Source of the DNA: Epibacterium ulvae
Lineage (GTDB): Bacteria; Pseudomonadota; Alphaproteobacteria; Rhodobacterales; Rhodobacteraceae
NCBI RefSeq assembly: GCF_018678075.1
Contig: NZ_JAHHIR010000036.1
Coordinates: forward strand, 1 to 40,303
Direction: 5' to 3'
Length of the DNA: 40,303 bases
How positions within the stretch are numbered: position 1 is the stretch's first letter; every line of letters begins with the position of its first letter. Both the position numbers and the translations under genes were made by a program. Shown here piece after piece: positions 25,829 to 40,168 of this stretch. Under the pieces are notes generated by a model, which ran no database searches, was not told the origin of the DNA, and saw only the letters and a program-made list of their open reading frames with translations.

Positions 25829-26599
25829 ATGACCACGCCCCAGTTCGCGCTCTCCCTTGTTGGTATCGGCACCGGCAATCCCAAGCATCTGACGCTACAA
25901 GCGGTTGAGGCGCTGAACACGGTCGATCTGATCCTGATCCCCAACAAAGGCGCGGGCAAAGATGATCTGGCATCCCTCCGTCAGGCCATCTGCACCAAAG
26001 TCATCCGCACCCCCGGCCACCGGATTGTTGAATTTGACCTGCCCACGCGGGATGAAGCCACGCAGGATTACCGCCAGCGCGTCGAGGACTGGCACGACGC
26101 GATTGTTGAGATCTGGTGGCAGAATATGGTCGACGCCCTTCCGGACGGCGGCACCGTCGGGTTTCTGGTCTGGGGGGATCCGTCCCTGTATGACAGCACG
26201 ATGCGGATTGCCGATCGCCTTCACCCCAAGGGTGAGATCACGGTACATGTGATCCCCGGCATCACCTCGATCCAGGCGCTGACGGCGGCTCATGCGGAGC
26301 CTTTGAACCAGATCAATGAGGCGGTGACGATCACCACCGGACGCCAGCTGCGCGATCACGGTTGGCCCGCCTCAGCCGAGACGCTGATCATCATGCTGGA
26401 TGGGCAATGCTCATTCACTAGCCTGCCCCCCAAAGGGGTCGAGATCTGGTGGACTGCTTATGCCGGGATGGACAACGAACTCTCGATATCCGGCCCACTT
26501 GCGGATGTCGGCGAGCAGATCCAACAGACGCGCGCCAAAGCGCGCGCTGAACATGGCTGGTTGATGGATATCTACATGCTGCGCCGCACCGCGCGTTAG
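25829..26599 (+). CDS. cobF: Precorrin-6A synthase (deacetylating)
   Basis: A 256-residue tetrapyrrole methylase that methylates precorrin-5 at C1 and releases acetate, an enzyme found only in the aerobic route. Motifs: LVGIGTGNPKHLTLQAVEAL, LIPNKGAGKDDLASLR, FLVWGDPSLYDSTM and VIPGITSIQAL. The start at 25829 is supported by GGAG eight bases upstream (TTTTTGGAGCC). It is separated from the other cob genes by cbiM and a terminator. Its final four bases overlap the end of the converging CYTH gene. Confidence 0.93.
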   Translation: MTTPQFALSLVGIGTGNPKHLTLQAVEALNTVDLILIPNKGAGKDDLASLRQAICTKVIRTPGHRIVEFDLPTRDEATQDYRQRVEDWHDAIVEIWWQNMVDALPDGGTVGFLVWGDPSLYDSTMRIADRLHPKGEITVHVIPGITSIQALTAAHAEPLNQINEAVTITTGRQLRDHGWPASAETLIIMLDGQCSFTSLPPKGVEIWWTAYAGMDNELSISGPLADVGEQIQQTRAKARAEHGWLMDIYMLRRTAR

Positions 26600-27060
26600 G
26601 CTGGCAGGCCGTTCACCGCCATGTTCTTGTTCTTATAACGTTTGTCGTCGGTAACATCGGTGCCAAACCAACGGGGTGGTTCAAAAGCTTGCGCCGCAGC
26701 GAGCGTATCAAATTCGACCTCGACCAGAACCAACCCGTCGAGCGCCCCTTCAAAGATGTCGAGCTCATAGATCAGCCCACCCGGCAACTGGGCGCTCCAG
26801 CGGATCTTCTCCACCCGGCGCCCGTCGGTTTCCGGCCAAAAGACATCAAACTGCGCTTGGGTGATCGCCGCCTCCCGTTCGGTGCGCACGGTGCCTTCGC
26901 CGGATTTGAAGGTCAGCACATAGTCGTCGTTCTTCTGCCGCAAGCGCATCTCAACCGCATCCGTGGGATGGGTGATATAGCCCTGCCGCACCTCGGTCCG
27001 CTTGGTATTTGCCAAATCCGGCAGTGCTGCGACCAGAAATTTCCGCTCGATCTCTTGCAT
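26596..27060 (-). CDS. CYTH-domain protein (triphosphate / inorganic polyphosphate-type phosphatase)
   Basis: A 154-residue single-domain CYTH protein. The signature EIERKFLV (residues 3-10) is followed by the charged strands lining the tunnel: VEMRLRQK, YVLTFKSGEGTVRTERE, YELDIFEG, LVLVEVEF and DKRYKNKNMA. Bacterial members cleave inorganic tripolyphosphate or related substrates with divalent metal. It is the last gene of the RHH-CHAD-ParA operon, nine bases after parA, with a GGGGGG ribosome site. CYTH and CHAD often occur together and are linked to polyphosphate; here ParA lies between them. Confidence 0.88.
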   Translation of the reverse strand: MQEIERKFLVAALPDLANTKRTEVRQGYITHPTDAVEMRLRQKNDDYVLTFKSGEGTVRTEREAAITQAQFDVFWPETDGRRVEKIRWSAQLPGGLIYELDIFEGALDGLVLVEVEFDTLAAAQAFEPPRWFGTDVTDDKRYKNKNMAVNGLPA

Positions 27061-27069
27061 ATCCCCCCC

Positions 27070-27813
27070 TCAAGTCCGCTTTTCCAGCTCGTGCCACAAG
27101 GCGCGATAGGCTTTGCCAGCCGGGCGGTTGCCCGCGAATGCCATGGTCGGTTCCCGGTGGACGCCCATCCGTTCGACATCGGTGGAAAACGGCAGCTGCG
27201 TCTCAAGGAACTTTCCCTTGTAGGACTTGCGCATCCGCTCCATCGTCTCACCATGTAAGCTCTTGCGGGACTGCACCATTGAAAAGAAGGGTTTCAGCTT
27301 TTTGGCTTGCAACCCCTGCTCCTCAAAGAAACTCACCAATTGCGCAAAGGTCCGTTCGGTCAGGGTCGAAGGGATCACCGGCACCACAACATGGTCGGCC
27401 GCCTTGAACACCGCCTCGGACAGGGACGACAGGTTGGGTGGGCAATCCAATAGGATCACATCATAATCCCCGTCCACCGCCTTGAGCGCCTTTTTCAGAC
27501 GAGAGCGGCTGTTCTTCATCCGCGACAGGAAAATATCAAAATCGCGAAACGTCAGGTTGGCGGGCAACACATCAAGGTATTCATAGTCGCTGCCGCGGAT
27601 CGCCTTGGTGAACCGTTCGACGTCTTCAAAAAACTTGGCCTCCTTCAGTTTCTTCGAAGGTTTCACCCGAAAGTAAAACCCTGACGCCCCCTGCGGGTCC
27701 AGATCACACAACAAGGTACGCGCGCCCGACTGTGCATAGGCATATGCAAGATTCACCGCCGAGGCGGTCTTACCCACGCCGCCTTTGTTGCTGTAACAGG
27801 CGATAATCTTCAT
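27070..27813 (-). CDS. parA: ParA/MinD-family partition ATPase
   Basis: A 247-residue ParA ATPase with the deviant Walker A SNKGGVGKTA (signature Lys10, Lys15), the LCDLDPQGASG switch region (Walker A') and DVILLDCPPNLSSLSEAV as Walker B. There is no N-terminal helix-turn-helix, so it is of the small type (plasmid Ib, McdA-like or MipZ-like). Such ATPases move DNA, carboxysomes or other cargo over the nucleoid. The ATG overlaps the CHAD stop (ATGA), tying production of the two together. The cargo is not known from sequence; the neighbours suggest polyphosphate. Confidence 0.9.
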   Translation of the reverse strand: MKIIACYSNKGGVGKTASAVNLAYAYAQSGARTLLCDLDPQGASGFYFRVKPSKKLKEAKFFEDVERFTKAIRGSDYEYLDVLPANLTFRDFDIFLSRMKNSRSRLKKALKAVDGDYDVILLDCPPNLSSLSEAVFKAADHVVVPVIPSTLTERTFAQLVSFFEEQGLQAKKLKPFFSMVQSRKSLHGETMERMRKSYKGKFLETQLPFSTDVERMGVHREPTMAFAGNRPAGKAYRALWHELEKRT

Positions 27814-29324
27814 AGTTGCGGCCCTTTCTCGTGAAACATTTGTCGAAACCTCTCGCGGGTCTCTGGGCTGTCAAACCGGGCAAAGCTCTGCACCACCCGC
27901 GCCCGTTCTTCTAATTGGCGGCCATGGAGTATGGAGATCAGCGCGCCAATGCTTTGCGCGGCCATGAGCGCAGTTTTCCCTTTCAGTCGTCCCGATGAAA
28001 TCAGCGCCTGCAAGCTCTCTTGTTGGACGGAATAGTCGTTGAACAACCCCAGGTTATCCTGCAGCCGTTTCAAGGGCTTCAACAGCGCCTTGATCTCAGC
28101 CGCATCAAACTGCAACGCAAAGAATTCAATAAGATACCGCAGTTTCTTGCAGGAAATGCGCAGCTCGTGCACCTCTTCATCCGGTGTCTGATCATCGATT
28201 TTGGCGGCGATTTTGGAGACTTTGCGATACCGTTTCCAGATCAGTTTCTGCGCGTAATCCCCAACACTCAAACCGCCCAAGGCGCCGTGAATGCATTCAC
28301 CGGGCGGTACAAATGTCGCCTCCAGATCCGCCATCTCGCGCTTGTATGCGGCGCTTTTCAACCGCTTGGTTAGATCGGCCAGAACGGCACTGCGATCGGC
28401 TTCAAAGGTGGCAAACATCAAGCGCAGACCTTCGTGCAGATTTGCAGGCAACATGTCGAAGTAATAGTCACGCTCCAGCAGGTACACATCCAGATCCCGC
28501 AACGGGCCGGTTGGTGCCATCAAATCTGAGAACCGCTGTTTCAAATCCTGCGTCGCCGCCGCGCCATAGACCCCTTTGAACAGGCTCAAGACCGAGCGAA
28601 TTTTGCGCAGGGCAACCCGGTAGTCATGCAAAAACTCGGTATCGAAATCCGCAAGCGTGCCCGCCTCGTTTTGACGCGCAACGCTCAGATAGGCCGATAT
28701 GATCCGATTTGCCGCGCAATAGGCGGTGGTCTCTTGCGAATACTCCAGCTTTGGCTTGGCGACATAGGCGTGTAATTCAGGAAACAACACATCCATGATC
28801 TGGCGCGGCGCGGCCTCAGTGGCGCCACGCTCCGCCAGTTTTTTGCGCACCAGTTTCAGGGATTTGCCATAGCCGCGCACCGGATCCAGCGATATCAGAC
28901 TTGTGGCGCGGTCAACGGTCGAAAACGTCAGAACCTGCACCCGCAGATGGGTTTTTTCCTCATCATCCACCAGTTTGACCTGCTGCTGATCGATCTCACC
29001 TTCGCCGAGGTTCAACAGACAGCGCAGCGGATCAACATCCGCCAACCGGGCCTTCACCGGACCATCAGCCAGATCCGCAACAAAATTCCCGGACCGCTCA
29101 GCCGTTTGCGAGACCGGCACGCCATCGGGCTGCACCAACGTCAACTGCCCGCCGCTTTCGAACAGCAGGCGACCAGACTGGCGGATGGATTGATCGAAAC
29201 AATCCAACAGCACAAATTTCGCGGTCTCTTGATCCGCATCGACATGGGCCACCAGCCCTTTGGACAGGTTCGGCCAATCGGTTGGGAGCAGCGGTTCAGA
29301 ACAGGATAACAATGAGTTTGACAT
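27810..29324 (-). CDS. CHAD-domain protein (polyphosphate-binding family)
   Basis: A 504-residue protein. The C-terminal part (from about 195) is a CHAD domain with two alpha-helical repeats, each with its basic motif: HDYRVALRKIRS (His233) and VHELRISCKKLRY (His386). CHAD domains bind inorganic polyphosphate and target proteins to polyphosphate granules. The N-terminal part (about 1-190) is beta-rich with acidic strands and may be a degenerate CYTH-like region, but lacks ExExK. No membrane segment or signal peptide is seen, so it should be cytoplasmic. It starts eight bases after the RHH gene and overlaps parA. Confidence 0.88.
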   Translation of the reverse strand: MSNSLLSCSEPLLPTDWPNLSKGLVAHVDADQETAKFVLLDCFDQSIRQSGRLLFESGGQLTLVQPDGVPVSQTAERSGNFVADLADGPVKARLADVDPLRCLLNLGEGEIDQQQVKLVDDEEKTHLRVQVLTFSTVDRATSLISLDPVRGYGKSLKLVRKKLAERGATEAAPRQIMDVLFPELHAYVAKPKLEYSQETTAYCAANRIISAYLSVARQNEAGTLADFDTEFLHDYRVALRKIRSVLSLFKGVYGAAATQDLKQRFSDLMAPTGPLRDLDVYLLERDYYFDMLPANLHEGLRLMFATFEADRSAVLADLTKRLKSAAYKREMADLEATFVPPGECIHGALGGLSVGDYAQKLIWKRYRKVSKIAAKIDDQTPDEEVHELRISCKKLRYLIEFFALQFDAAEIKALLKPLKRLQDNLGLFNDYSVQQESLQALISSGRLKGKTALMAAQSIGALISILHGRQLEERARVVQSFARFDSPETRERFRQMFHEKGPQL

Positions 29325-29332
29325 TTCCTCAG

Positions 29333-29512
29333 TCAGTTTTTCTTTTTGCTGTCAGACAGATAGTCTTCGACGAGGCGTTCAATGATTTTTTGAACGCTAG
29401 TATCTTCCTCTATCGCGCGGATTTTCAGCGCCTTTAAGGTTTTTCGATCCAATCGCAGAGAGGTGTTTTTCTTGTCACCGTCAGCGGATTTGGTTGGTTT
29501 GTCTTTAGCCAT
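29333..29512 (-). CDS. Small ribbon-helix-helix protein (ParG/CopG-like) leading the CHAD-ParA operon
   Basis: A 59-residue frame. A lysine-rich flexible tail (MAKDKPTKSADGDKKN) is followed by a beta strand TSLRLDRKT and two helices LKALKIRAIEED and SVQKIIERLVEDYL, ending in a Lys-rich tail. This is the ribbon-helix-helix layout of ParG, omega and CopG proteins, which partner ParA ATPases and repress their own operons. A GGAG-like site (GAGGGAGCTCG) lies just upstream of the ATG. It lies eight bases before the CHAD gene. A cluster of TGACG repeats lies directly upstream, a plausible binding site. Confidence 0.75.
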   Translation of the reverse strand: MAKDKPTKSADGDKKNTSLRLDRKTLKALKIRAIEEDTSVQKIIERLVEDYLSDSKKKN

Positions 29513-29524
29513 ACGCGAGCTCCC

Positions 29525-29563
29525 TCATGACGTCATGATGACGCTGACGTCCGGTGAAGTCAA
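29525..29563 (-). promoter_or_regulatory. TGACG-repeat operator overlapping a candidate promoter of the RHH-CHAD-ParA-CYTH operon
   Basis: A perfect 14-bp palindrome TCATGACGTCATGA (29525-29538) is followed by TGACG at 29539-29543 and 29545-29549 and TGAAGTCA at 29555-29562. On the minus strand TTGACT (29563-29558) and CATCAT (29540-29535) are 17 bases apart and could be -35 and -10 boxes. The repeats then cover the core promoter, as expected for self-repression by the RHH protein, and could double as a partition site. Confidence 0.5.
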
Positions 29564-29650: not shown

Positions 29651-30219
29651 CTACCAGTTCGCAGCCGCTACGCGATAGGTGAACGCGCTTTGCTCCTCAG
29701 CCTTGGCCTCCGCCAGCAGCGCATCAACCTGCGCCCGCCCCGGAGCGTGGGAACATACCGGATCCGTTGTACTTGCATCCCCGCCAAAGCCAGCGCCTGA
29801 CAGCGGCACCCGCCAAAGTTGATCTCTTTACGCTCGCAGCTTTTGCAAGGATCCGGCAACCAGTCGGTTCCGCGATAGGCATGAAAGGCAGCGCTTTTGT
29901 ACCAGATCTCGGCCAAAGGGCGCTCTGCAACCGTTTCAAACTGCAAATGCGGGATGGTCTCGGCCGCATGGCACGGCAGAACCTTGCCCTCCGGTGTGAC
30001 ATTCATCCCCGCGCTGCCCCATCCGCCCAAACAGGCCTTGGGGTATTCCGCAAAATAATCGGGGGGAACGAAGTCGATGGCGAGAATACCGCGCAGCCGC
30101 TGCGCAGCTTCTGCAACCTTGTGCTTCGTCTCGGCTGTTTGAGCGCGAGTGGGTAAGAGCATGCCTCGGTTTTTGGTGGCCCAACCGTGAAACTGCACAC
30201 AGGCGACCTCAAGCCTGTG
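29651..30219 (-). pseudogene. pqqE: pqqE remnant: C-terminal part, truncated and frameshifted
   Basis: From about 30219 down, the minus strand reads [39 protein letters not shown]-like sequence ([20 protein letters not shown]), [19 protein letters not shown] and [20 protein letters not shown]. This is the C-terminal third of PqqE, the radical-SAM enzyme that links Glu and Tyr in PqqA, including the SPASM-domain cysteines. One base seems lost in the G run at 29779-29782. In the next frame the tail continues as [19 protein letters not shown] and ends at a TAG at 29651-29653. The radical-SAM N-terminal part is absent. No other pqq gene is nearby, so it is dead. Confidence 0.85.
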
Positions 30220-30362
30220 TGCATGGGGAACATGTTGTCGCGCGCCCTTCGTGACGAGCAAGTACAGGAAATGACCGACTCTGAGCGATTGGCGGAGGTA
30301 GCAAAGGGACACTTCTAAGCCCCGCGCGTCGCCGTGCCTGCATCGATCGTGTTCCAAGTGAG

Positions 30363-30914
30363 CTGAACGTCTCGGAACACCGCGCAGGCCGGGTTCTGAG
30401 ACAACGCCGGTCTACGCAACGCAAAATGCCCGTGGGACGCGCTGATGAAGAACGATTGGTGGCCGACATGATCGAGCTGACCCGACAATATGGCCGTTAC
30501 GGTTATCGTCGGATCGCAGCACTACTGAGAGACGCTGGCTGGCATGTGAATAACAAGCGCCTGGAATGGTTGTGGCGACGAGAGGGGCTGAAAGTGCCAA
30601 TGAAACAACCAAAGAAGGGGCGGCTCCGGCTGAATGTTGGATCATGTGTCCGGCTTCGCCCTGAGTATCGTAATCACGTTTGGTCGTATGATTTCGTGCA
30701 CCACAGAACCGACGATGGCAGAGCCTTTAGGACGCTCAACATCTTGGATGAACGCAGCCGAGAATGTTTGGCGATCCTGTTGAAACGGAAGCTGAACTCG
30801 ACTGAGGTCATCGATGCTCTCACAGACTTGTTCATCCTGCGTGGCGTGCCAGCCACGTCCGTTCGCCAATCCAGGCCAGGTTTTCATCCTTCCCGCAACA
30901 GTCGAAAGGACTGA
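30363..30914 (+). pseudogene. IS3-family (IS407-like) transposase OrfB remnant
   Basis: An open frame reads [20 protein letters not shown], then DEERLVADMIELTRQYGRYG, RRIAALLRDAGW, and the integrase-core opening WSYDFVHHRTDDGRAFRTL, with DERSRECLAI and TDLFILRGVP. It then departs from the family just where the second catalytic aspartate region (normally RSDNGPEF) should come. The third acidic residue is missing. Both ends are lost, so it cannot be active. It marks the left side of the polysaccharide island; an OrfA stub of the same type lies at 37385-37522. Confidence 0.85.
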
Positions 30915-37696: not shown

Positions 37697-38761
37697 ATGG
37701 ATGTCGAAGTATTGGGCATTGATCTGGGTAAGACCGTTTGCAGCCTTGAGGGATTGGACGCAACAGGCGCGGTCGTGTACCGCAAGCGCCTTCAACGGCA
37801 CCGGTTGCTGGACTTTCTGGAAGGTTTGGATCCCTGCATTGTTGCGATGGAGGCTTGCGGCGGCGCGCATCACATTGGTCGTTTTTGCCTTCAACACGGT
37901 CATGAGTCTCGACTGATGTCGCCGCTTTATGTCCGGCCCTATGGTAATAAGAACCCTTTGAACTTCACACTGTCGGAATGGCAGCAAGCCAAACGCCACG
38001 GATACGATCCGCGTGAAATCAAACAATTCTTCCGCGACGCTTGGGAACGCAGCGATGGCCTGAAAGGATTTCGCACAGCCTTGGAAGATCGCGGCTTTCA
38101 TCTGGCCCAAGGTGACAGACGCGGATTTGTTGCACTGGATTTGCAAGGAAAACCCTATTCCATCAGCAAATGGACAGGTGTTCGGGTCAAAGACTTGAAA
38201 GCCAAATTAGGCGACCCCACTGCCCTTCCCGCTGTATCAAAGGTTGAACAAAACATACGTCAGCGCATGGCGGATCAGGTGAAGACCTATATTCGTGAAG
38301 TTAAATCCCGTCATCACGAGGAAATGTCGCCGTTTGTTGAAGCCCGCGCGGCCATGATTGCTGCACAACGTGCTGAACGCAAACATCTGAAGGATAAACA
38401 AGACGAGCGATGGACACAGGAATTAAAGACCCGTTCAGATCGCCTAAACAAAGGCTTGAGGGGGATTTTTGATCGACTGACTGGCAAATCTGCCAAGATC
38501 AAACAGCAAAATGAACGCGAAGCTGTTGCCTGCGCCAAACGCGATCAGGCACAACGCGACGACCTGATCACAGCGCAGATCAATGACCGCCGAGACCTGC
38601 AAAAAAGCGTACGATCCGTGAAGGCTAAACATAGGCAAGATCGCAAGCTTCTTGCCAAAACAATTGCGGATTATCTGCGACGAACACCTATCGATGCGGA
38701 GCGCGAAAAGACCGCTTCGCGATCACGCAAGCGATCTCGTGGGATGGATCTATCGCCCTGA
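37697..38761 (+). CDS. Chimeric frame: IS110 transposase N-terminus fused to relaxase C-terminus
   Basis: A 354-residue frame from two families. Residues 1-82 are the start of an IS110/IS1111 DEDD transposase (GIDLGK with Asp9, VAMEACGG with Glu52, SRLMSPLYVRPY). From about residue 83, near base 37943, it changes to the C-terminal region of a VirD2/MobA-type relaxase: LNFTLSEWQQAKRHGYDPRE, FRDAW, RGFHLAQGDRRGFVALDLQG and GVRVKDLKAKLGDP, then a long Lys/Arg/Glu/Gln-rich helical tail (about 195-350). The relaxase catalytic tyrosine and histidine domain is absent. AGGAG precedes the ATG, so it may be expressed. An element-end insertion or deletion joining the two in frame is the likely origin. 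Confidence 0.75.
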   Translation: MDVEVLGIDLGKTVCSLEGLDATGAVVYRKRLQRHRLLDFLEGLDPCIVAMEACGGAHHIGRFCLQHGHESRLMSPLYVRPYGNKNPLNFTLSEWQQAKRHGYDPREIKQFFRDAWERSDGLKGFRTALEDRGFHLAQGDRRGFVALDLQGKPYSISKWTGVRVKDLKAKLGDPTALPAVSKVEQNIRQRMADQVKTYIREVKSRHHEEMSPFVEARAAMIAAQRAERKHLKDKQDERWTQELKTRSDRLNKGLRGIFDRLTGKSAKIKQQNEREAVACAKRDQAQRDDLITAQINDRRDLQKSVRSVKAKHRQDRKLLAKTIADYLRRTPIDAEREKTASRSRKRSRGMDLSP

Positions 38762-38849
38762 TCACACAGGAGTTTACCCGGAATTACCGCGCTATTACCC
38801 ACGAGAATCATGCGCGTAATGTTTGATGTGAGAGACACTTTCAACTCTG

Positions 38850-39680
38850 ATGAGGAGAAGTGTCTTGAAACACTCACCTATCTATTCACCGCAGTGCATC
38901 GCCATCGTGCTTTTGGCCACACTGCTTTGTATCTGGCTTCCAGATGCCGCACTGGCGGATCTGGTTTGGCACAATGGTCGCTGGATCGATGAACGCTCCT
39001 TGCGCAATGCCAATGGGTTTTCCTTGGAAACGATTATGTCGCTCTCTCGCATTGCGGTCATGGGCGGCGCTACCCTACTCGGCTTTGTGATTGGCTGGTT
39101 CTTCTCACCCGAAGCAAAAGAGCTTCGCCGCGCCATCCTAGGCCTTCTCGCCGTTTTGGCCGGGCTTTACATTCTGATGGTCGATGATGCCGTGAGCTGG
39201 AGCATGGCCTTTTTGATTGGCCTGTGCGGCTTTTGTTGGGGCATCGGGTATTGGCTTGGGCGTGGTCTGCAAGGGCTGATGAAACCGCCCTCAACGTTCG
39301 GCTCCGCCAAATGGGCGAATGGCGATCATCTGAATGAGAAAAACCTCTTTGATGGCGAAGGCATCTTCTTGGGCAAGTTTCGCGTTGGTGAAACCTTGTG
39401 GGATGTCATCTACAAAGGGGATCGACATCTCTTCACCTATGCTCCTACACGTGGCGGCAAAGGTGTCTCACAGATCATTCCAAACCTGCTGCGTTATCTG
39501 GGATCTGTTTTGGCAATCGATCCCAAAAGCGAAAACCTGCAAGTGACCGCAAAGGCGCGCATCGAAATGGGGCAAGAGGTTTACGCGATTGATCCATGGA
39601 ATATTGGCGCGGCCAAAGTTGGTGTAATCGGCGGAGCAATACTCGGCCACGGTAGCGGCGGCGTTGTGCACTCCCCCTGA
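38850..39680 (+). pseudogene. VirD4/TraG-type coupling protein, N-terminal fragment
   Basis: The first about 250 residues of a type IV secretion coupling ATPase: membrane segments near 12-30, 65-85, 97-112 and 117-135, then FGSAKWANGDHL, the P-loop region YAPTRGGKGVSQIIPNLL, VLAIDPKSENL and EVYAIDPWNI. It breaks off soon after, near base 39600-39660, and the DNA then belongs to something else, so Walker B and the all-alpha domain are missing. The start could be ATG 38850 or TTG 38865; GAGGAG at 38852-38857 favours the latter. It directly follows the relaxase-derived frame, as in conjugative transfer regions. Confidence 0.8.
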
Positions 39681-40168
39681 TAGAATTGATATGCGAGGGC
39701 ATAGCCGGACTGCACCGCATCCTGCTCAAAATAGAAGCCTTGCTCTGGCCTGATATGGATGACGTCATCAGGTCTGTTTACCTTTCGTTTCACCAACTCG
39801 AGGGCCTGATCTTCCAATATGACGCGTAGACGCTCTTTGTGGGCGCTCTTCTCAATATATGCCCCTACATCCCTGATCAGGCGTCTGGGGAATAGCGCGG
39901 CATCATGCATCTGGGCGTGGTGGTAATGATGCTCTGCAAAATATTTATAAAGCCTCTGGCACTTGTCACGCGCCAGTTTGCCATTACGAATATTGGCAAA
40001 ATCTCCCCATTCAGGATCGCCAGTGATTCCCAAGGCTTTGTTCAAAAACCGCTCAATCGTCAGAGGCGTTGTTGTGGCAACGGATTTCGCAACCTTGAAG
40101 AGGGCTTTGCGCTGCTCCGTTGTTGCGTATGACCAATCGATGAACATAGTGAATTCGTCCCTATTCAA
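39581..40168 (-). CDS. Unrecognised protein, probably a fragment truncated at both ends
   Basis: The frame reads TMFIDWSYATTEQRKALFKV, LTIERFLNKALGITGDPEWG, KCQRLYKYFAEHHYHHAQMH and IHIRPEQGFYFEQDAVQSGY. I do not recognise a family. The first codon of the listed span is TTG; the frame stays open upstream to about 40243 with a cysteine-rich stretch (DDGHCAENTYACDCEAY) but no ATG or GTG. The last 30 or so codons run back into the coupling-protein fragment on the other strand, so the C-terminus has been replaced. Probably a relic of a rearranged mobile region. Confidence 0.35.
   Translation of the reverse strand: MNRDEFTMFIDWSYATTEQRKALFKVAKSVATTTPLTIERFLNKALGITGDPEWGDFANIRNGKLARDKCQRLYKYFAEHHYHHAQMHDAALFPRRLIRDVGAYIEKSAHKERLRVILEDQALELVKRKVNRPDDVIHIRPEQGFYFEQDAVQSGYALAYQFYQGECTTPPLPWPSIAPPITPTLAAPIFHGSIA

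Follow-up and report, generated by a model that had tools for sequence, protein, structure and literature searches.

In the McdAB system of carboxysomes, McdA is the component that binds the scaffold, the nucleoid, and McdB is the one that binds the organelle, as summarized in the parts available to us of a 2025 review (PMC13052382). In the same parts, the ATP dependence of polyphosphate granule positioning is listed as unknown and the table names only AlgP for polyphosphate. The spacing of polyphosphate granules on the nucleoid of Pseudomonas aeruginosa was reported to depend on AlgP (PMC9239181), and in Acidithiobacillus a folD-ppk-parA-CHAD gene arrangement is highly conserved, although the available text gives its ParA a plasmid-partition role only (PMC10892726). 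Here we analyzed a stretch of 40,303 nt (the window), which is contig C15 of the 4.1-Mb draft genome of Epibacterium ulvae. Its minus strand carries the genes for a small ribbon-helix-helix (RHH) protein, a CHAD protein, a ParA-type ATPase and a CYTH enzyme, in the order RHH-CHAD-ParA-CYTH (Table 1). An earlier note on this DNA had read the four genes as a candidate system for partitioning polyphosphate granules, an interpretation that is partly supported by the present analysis.

The reading that we prefer, with a probability of roughly 57%, is that the genes form a self-contained module for polyphosphate granules in which the CHAD protein serves as granule adaptor, ParA as nucleoid motor, CYTH as the enzyme that clears tripolyphosphate, and RHH as the protein that sets expression. 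The CHAD protein would coat the granules through its CHAD domain, while the ATP form of ParA would bind the nucleoid, and granule-bound CHAD would capture ParA and switch it off. This would space the granules over the nucleoid or share them out over it, in the manner of McdAB with carboxysomes. CYTH would hydrolyze tripolyphosphate, an end product of polyphosphate breakdown, and RHH, an optional member, would repress the operon at a TGACGTCA site.

The gene set and its order form a real, conserved module with CHAD and ParA as the core. The earlier description of four tightly packed genes agrees with the coordinates, the Pfam matches and the gaps of 8, -4 and 9 bases, the negative one being a 4-base overlap of the ParA start codon with the CHAD stop. 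When 61 genomes were searched with a CHAD profile, 26 had any match and 11, this one included, had the orthologous type of CHAD (E<=1e-60). The four-gene order was kept in six of the ten relatives with an orthologous CHAD (loci L003 and L005-L009; CHAD identity 45-73%), and another, L010, kept RHH-CHAD-ParA, with CYTH not found in its short locus. The upstream genes vary among these relatives and include a radical-SAM gene (Pfam) and kynureninase-like and PrpF-like genes, the latter two named by eye. A pattern scan with the ParA alignment over one genome per species (84,980 species) yielded 372 relatives (tblastn E<=1e-3), which may not all be of this subfamily, and the best 80 of these, picked by ParA similarity and 66-92% identical to the ParA of the window, were compared as loci. 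CHAD lies directly upstream of ParA in all 80; the two genes are -26 to +10 bases apart in 79 of these and 176 bases apart in one. Because the order is kept in six of ten relatives and CHAD precedes ParA in 80 of 80 loci, the operon order is more than chance; the test of order in relatives, which had been named as a possible refutation, did not refute the reading, and the proposed tie of ParA to CHAD is supported. CYTH (>=150 bits) was found in 66 of the 80 loci and is missing or broken in 14, and in L099 it is split in two pieces. RHH (>=40 bits) was found in 43, was weak in 6 and was not found in 31, two of which (L071 and L072) have contig ends inside CHAD. It is this difference in retention that marks CHAD and ParA as the core. 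The contexts around the loci are varied, with 49 distinct clusters of nearest upstream open reading frames (ORFs) in 77 loci and 53 downstream in 78, some of them spurious since the clusters were built from raw ORFs of at least 120 aa. A stand-alone NUDIX-like gene lies downstream in 13 of the 80 loci and in five Paracoccus plasmid loci that were opened.

The linkage was also seen within the family. Among 295 family genomes, a CHAD profile match was obtained in 43 (E<=1e-100 in 21), and 19 had a ParA at E<=1e-40. All 19 adjoin CHAD (in G261 the neighbor is a fragment of CHAD, on a small contig), so that at this cutoff ParA was not seen without CHAD in the family. Two of the 21 CHAD carriers are without an intact ParA: it is degraded in G084, and none was found within 1.5 kb after CHAD in G143. 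As these genome profile searches scored 5 to 9 candidates per genome, absences in them are soft.

The link of the operon to polyphosphate is supported by the fold of the CHAD protein and by its kept binding residues. The protein combines a degenerate CYTH/TTM-like N-terminal domain (residues ~1-190) with a long CHAD domain of the polyphosphate-binding kind (~200-500), and both histidine motifs claimed for it, EFLHDYR (H233) and EVHELRI (H386), were read from the sequence. The best Foldseek match of its AlphaFold2 model (mean predicted local distance difference test score, pLDDT, 85) is the polyphosphate-bound Chlorobium CHAD structure 6qva (TMt 0.94, 35% identity); full-length YgiF and TTM enzymes match less well, in keeping with a TTM-like N-terminal domain. 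No ExExK motif was seen in that domain when it was read by eye, and it is therefore probably non-catalytic. In CtCHAD, mutation of H253, R256, R260, R296, R418 and Y419 was reported to lower polyphosphate binding (PMC6537752, seen in part). In an alignment to 6qva, mapped by hand, these residues correspond to H233, R236, R240, R276, R396 and Y397, all of which are invariant in the nine CHAD proteins aligned. On the front side, R438 and K441 of CtCHAD correspond to K416 and K419, and on the back side K386, K389 and K390 correspond to basic residues and R385 to W363. The structural match and the kept residues are thus what would be expected of the polyphosphate-binding adaptor that the earlier note had proposed, and the invariant neighborhood with ParA makes CHAD the candidate partner of this ATPase.

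The ParA protein has no extra N-terminal domain, and its Walker A, A' and B motifs are intact (KGGVGKT at 10-16, DLDPQG at 37-42 and LLDCPP at 121-126, read from the sequence), which places it among the ParA/MinD deviant Walker A ATPases, as had been claimed. Residues K10, G11, G12, K15, T16, D37, D39 and D123 are invariant in all eight aligned sequences. Among solved sequences, 8ray of the ParA family comes closest, ahead of 4pfs/5if9, which were deposited as cobyrinic acid synthase, and of Soj chains. The best NCBIfam models are ParA_partition (3e-27) and partition_RepA (4e-23), followed by cellulose_yhjQ (BcsQ; 1.5e-18). A structure model of ParA, with a mean pLDDT of 45, was discarded as unusable. 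By analogy with its family, this ParA may bind the nucleoid.

For the CYTH protein, the only solved proteins that its profile matched at E<=1e-5 were the two structures of NE1496 (2fbl and 3typ, E 8e-63 and 2e-62). NE1496, or NeuTTM, of Nitrosomonas europaea was described as a specific tripolyphosphatase with Tyr28 and Lys52 proposed as the catalytic dyad (PMC3440374, seen in part). The protein of the window has the ExExK motif (EIERK, read from the sequence) together with the Tyr28/Lys52 dyad, the sequence features of the NeuTTM type, and both dyad residues are invariant in ten of ten aligned sequences. It is therefore a probable tripolyphosphatase of the NE1496 type, in line with the suggestion that CYTH acts on a breakdown product of polyphosphate.

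The role of RHH appears to differ from what was first thought. The protein matches Pfam RHH_1 at 22.5 bits, with a cutoff of 20.5, and gave just two matches against Protein Data Bank profiles, both at chance level. Its coding sequence is preceded by a CATCATGACGTCATGA site, which ends 12 bases ahead of the RHH start codon and overlaps a predicted -10 box; promoter-like elements are weak evidence alone in this region, with two found and 1.4 expected from shuffles. The palindrome TGACGTCA occurs in 33 of 44 upstream sequences (the 43 RHH-intact loci and the window; 136-base stretch), while in 200 shuffles of the stretches upstream of RHH no palindromic 8-mer occurred in more than three sequences. 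When the stretch was widened, the exact core was found in 38 of 43 loci with an intact RHH, in three of six with a weak RHH and in one of 29 in which RHH was not found (two loci were left out of the count because their upstream sequence was too short), compared with 0.55% of 1628 random windows. The consensus of the aligned sites is TGAcaTcATGACGTCAT, made of tandem TGACRTCA-like units. Given its position over the predicted -10 box and its rarity in loci without a detected RHH, the likelier and simplest explanation of the site is an operator for autorepression, with RHH as the protein that would bind there. The earlier proposal that RHH is the DNA-binding half of a positioning machine is not supported in that form, as 37 of the 80 CHAD-ParA loci have a weak RHH or none and RHH tracks a site that overlaps the predicted promoter. 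The 10-base palindrome ATGACGTCAT has a second exact copy in the window at 39759-39768, near a conjugation gene, which is probably due to chance (three matches with at most one mismatch, compared with 1.15 expected).

A small ParA, an RHH protein and a nearby tandem site are the layout of type Ib DNA partition systems. All three are present here, so that RHH and ParA might be a cassette resembling ParF-ParG, with the TGACGTCA site as its centromere and with CHAD and CYTH either as passengers or as a tether between DNA and polyphosphate. The module is also found on Paracoccus plasmids, and the 16-base CATCATGACGTCATGA form has a single exact place in the genome, upstream of the operon, with near-matches at seven other places that have two mismatches each and no intact core. 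We nevertheless regard a DNA partition cassette as quite unlikely, because CHAD sits between RHH and ParA, because RHH is intact in only 43 loci while CHAD-ParA is in all 80, so that the pairing of RHH with ParA seen at this locus holds in only part of them, and because the site lies over a predicted -10 box and is rarely found without RHH even though ParA stays.

In several lineages the module has genes of phosphate and polyphosphate metabolism as neighbors. Five of the 80 loci have PPK1 at most 6 kb away, as the next gene in L090, L107 and L137 and a few genes off in L122 and L136, the last two of which also have PPX. The probability of at least five such loci by chance is ~5e-6, and that of at least four, with Colwellia counted once, is 1e-4; this estimate takes ~12 kb as seen per 4-Mb genome and treats the loci as independent, the flanks as full and PPK1 as a single gene in each genome. 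In one of the five opened Paracoccus plasmids, that of Paracoccus marcusii, pstA-pstB-phoU-phoB is located upstream of the module, and L064 contains pstB-phoU. In addition, at least one gene of the GAK system or associated with it (HprK-related kinase, ATP-grasp, PhoU-APH protein, SixA-NUDIX) was observed near the module in each of L067, L068, L072, L102, L104 and L105, and one GAK-associated gene fuses PhoU and APH domains. Such neighbors (PPK1, PPX, Pst, PhoU, SixA-NUDIX and GAK genes), together with the coming and going of CYTH and RHH, could also be expected of an operon for polyphosphate or phosphate stress whose four proteins work independently, ParA having an incidental role. We consider this improbable: the median pairwise identity is higher for ParA than for CHAD (0.68 vs 0.44, although the ParA value has a floor because the loci were selected by ParA similarity), the two genes overlap or abut in nearly all loci, and this combination of conservation and overlap argues for a joint function.

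Genome-wide, a wider clade of ParA was defined in 398 genomes of the phylum by a cutoff of E<=1e-46, set at a visible gap, which left 68 genomes positive. CHAD occurs somewhere in 57 of these 68 and in 137 of the 330 others (p=8e-11, uncorrected for kinship). Three loci with a ParA of the wider clade (L169, L177 and L180) adjoin a PHO4 phosphate transporter.

Several results weigh against a granule-positioning module. The wider ParA clade adjoins CHAD in at least 7 of the 68 genomes among the matches listed, and of the 25 loci L157-L181, only L161 and L167 gave a CHAD match by profile in flanks of at most 1.5 kb, the other 23 giving none. ParA is absent or degraded while CHAD stays in three relatives: parA is degraded in L038 and a remnant in L011, and in L004 CHAD and CYTH are separated by ~170 bases that do not match ParA, so that ParA is dispensable. 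In L012, CHAD is truncated and there is no ParA. PPK1 was not found in this genome, which is 97% complete and has three PPK2 genes. Furthermore, the expectation that PPK1 would be commoner in carriers was not borne out, as the reverse was found: within the family, 11 of 21 CHAD carriers have PPK1 compared with 247 of the 274 others (p=4e-5, uncorrected for kinship), where G254, G256 and G261 were scored as negative because they are absent from the match table, G261 being 75% complete. This deficit may be a clade effect, with carriers clustering in lineages and PPK2 as the source of polyphosphate, but it is not predicted by a simple link to polyphosphate made by PPK1, and it weakens the case. 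Finally, ParA scored under the curated cutoff of every NCBIfam model shown, and it could regulate an enzyme instead.

Such a ParA would be a BcsQ-like regulator that localizes or switches a polyphosphate enzyme (PPK2 or CYTH) or CHAD, with the granules not being moved. Its profile does overlap the BcsQ models, Pfam CBP_BcsQ (E 3e-10) as well as cellulose_yhjQ, it lies near polyphosphate enzymes in some loci, and its loss or degradation in some relatives would be compatible with a regulator. We think this unlikely, though less so than the other two alternatives, for the top NCBIfam scores belong to partition models, even if below cutoff, ParA and Soj chains are among the solved matches, and what accompanies ParA in all 80 loci is a polyphosphate-binding protein and no enzyme, whereas CYTH is missing or broken in 14.

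The module is widely distributed. By record title, its hosts include Rhodobacteraceae, other Alphaproteobacteria, Gammaproteobacteria (Neiella and Colwellia), Desulforhopalus and Pontiella, the last two of which we take to belong to other phyla. Two record names, those of L105 (Enemella evansiae) and L129 (Nitrosomonas europaea), are doubtful and were not relied on; the layout of L129 is similar to that of Paracoccus L140. The ParA of Neiella is 73-75% identical to that of the window, compared with 67-73% for many Ruegeria, Paracoccus and Salipiger proteins, which suggests that the module has spread by horizontal transfer. Among ten plasmid records with a ParA match, six are from Paracoccus, and the five that were opened carry the module. 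For plasmid hits at 35-43% identity, no annotated CHAD was present in the stretches from Marinobacter and Pontibacter, the Pontibacter record ending close to ParA, and the stretch from Novosphingobium is without annotation. A plasmid CHAD hit in Thiodictyon lies in a stretch without an annotated parA, and the Photobacterium record is without annotation at the place of its CHAD hit. Taken more generally, the module could be a horizontally mobile, ATP-driven system for positioning and inheritance of polyphosphate granules in several phyla, in which CHAD is the adaptor of a ParA subfamily of its own and is often encoded together with a tripolyphosphatase; for this broader claim we consider the chances to be evenly balanced.

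Table 1. Features of the RHH-CHAD-ParA-CYTH operon, with positions in the window
Feature	Coordinates	Strand	Basis
Promoter-like element TTGACT-17-CATCAT	29535..29563	-	Consensus scan, 9/12 matches
Palindromic site CATCATGACGTCATGA, core TGACGTCA; probable RHH operator	29525..29540	-	Overlap with predicted -10 box, co-variation with RHH
RHH, 59 aa, ribbon-helix-helix protein, probable autorepressor	29333..29512	-	Pfam RHH_1 E 1e-4
CHAD, 504 aa	27810..29324	-	Pfam CHAD E 4e-58
ParA, 247 aa, deviant Walker A ATPase	27070..27813	-	Pfam AAA_31 E 8e-38
CYTH, 154 aa, single-domain triphosphate tunnel enzyme	26596..27060	-	Pfam CYTH E 2e-7

In the surroundings of the operon, the region upstream of it (29671-30911) holds only a piece of a radical-SAM/SPASM gene, in which the SPASM domain was found, adjoining a piece of an HTH_21/rve transposase; the matching position in the relative L003 is taken by a radical-SAM/SPASM gene of 362 aa. 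At 37697-39677 there is a piece of a conjugation coupling protein (T4SS-DNA_transf), after an ORF with a start resembling an IS110-type transposase, which was read by eye and had no Pfam match, hinting that this end of the contig is a mobile region. A PADLOC scan of the locus gave no convincing match to anti-phage defense, its sole hit being the 37-residue P-loop of ParA at 26.6 bits.

The placing and inheritance of polyphosphate granules are treated as an open question, and whether energy is spent on them remains to be seen, according to the parts available of the review cited above (PMC13052382). The module is a small and testable candidate in this respect. Operon carriers include cultured marine bacteria (Tritonibacter and Ruegeria strains), and ParA-less relatives exist for comparison. 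If the proposal is true, a storage polymer joins the cargoes of ParA ATPases.

The earlier statement that no system of this make-up had been described can be kept in part. No paper assigning ParA to the positioning of polyphosphate granules was found in the open-licence full texts of PMC, a collection that leaves preprints outside and holds few subscription papers, but the folD-ppk-parA-CHAD locus of Acidithiobacillus had been reported (PMC10892726). That locus likewise brings CHAD, parA and a polyphosphate kinase gene together; compared by description only, the available part of its report mentions no RHH, no separate CYTH gene and no polyphosphate role for ParA. The likeness to McdAB lies in a ParA-type ATPase with a candidate cargo-binding adaptor. 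The candidate adaptor here is the CHAD protein and not McdB, the cargo would be polyphosphate, and there are an extra CYTH and an optional RHH. As general Pfam and NCBIfam scans, in which no McdB model was run, named McdB for none of the four proteins, and as the paired protein is a CHAD protein, we claim that the module would work like McdAB and not that it belongs to it. With the AlgP system it would share the organization of polyphosphate granules on the nucleoid, but AlgP is a histone-like protein, and the available text on it does not mention ParA (PMC9239181). In comparison with the CHAD phosins (CtCHAD, YgiF and Ralstonia CHAD proteins), the long CHAD fold and the polyphosphate-binding residues are the same, while the linkage to ParA and the degenerate N-terminal CYTH-like domain without a visible ExExK differ. 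NeuTTM (NE1496) is likewise a single-domain CYTH protein, related by profile (E 8e-63) and by the kept Tyr28/Lys52, whereas the CYTH protein of the window is embedded in a CHAD-ParA operon and its tripolyphosphatase activity is predicted. Type Ib partition systems (ParF-ParG and delta-omega) share the small ParA, the RHH protein and a palindromic site with tandem units, but in the module described here RHH is optional, CHAD is invariant, and the site lies over a predicted promoter.

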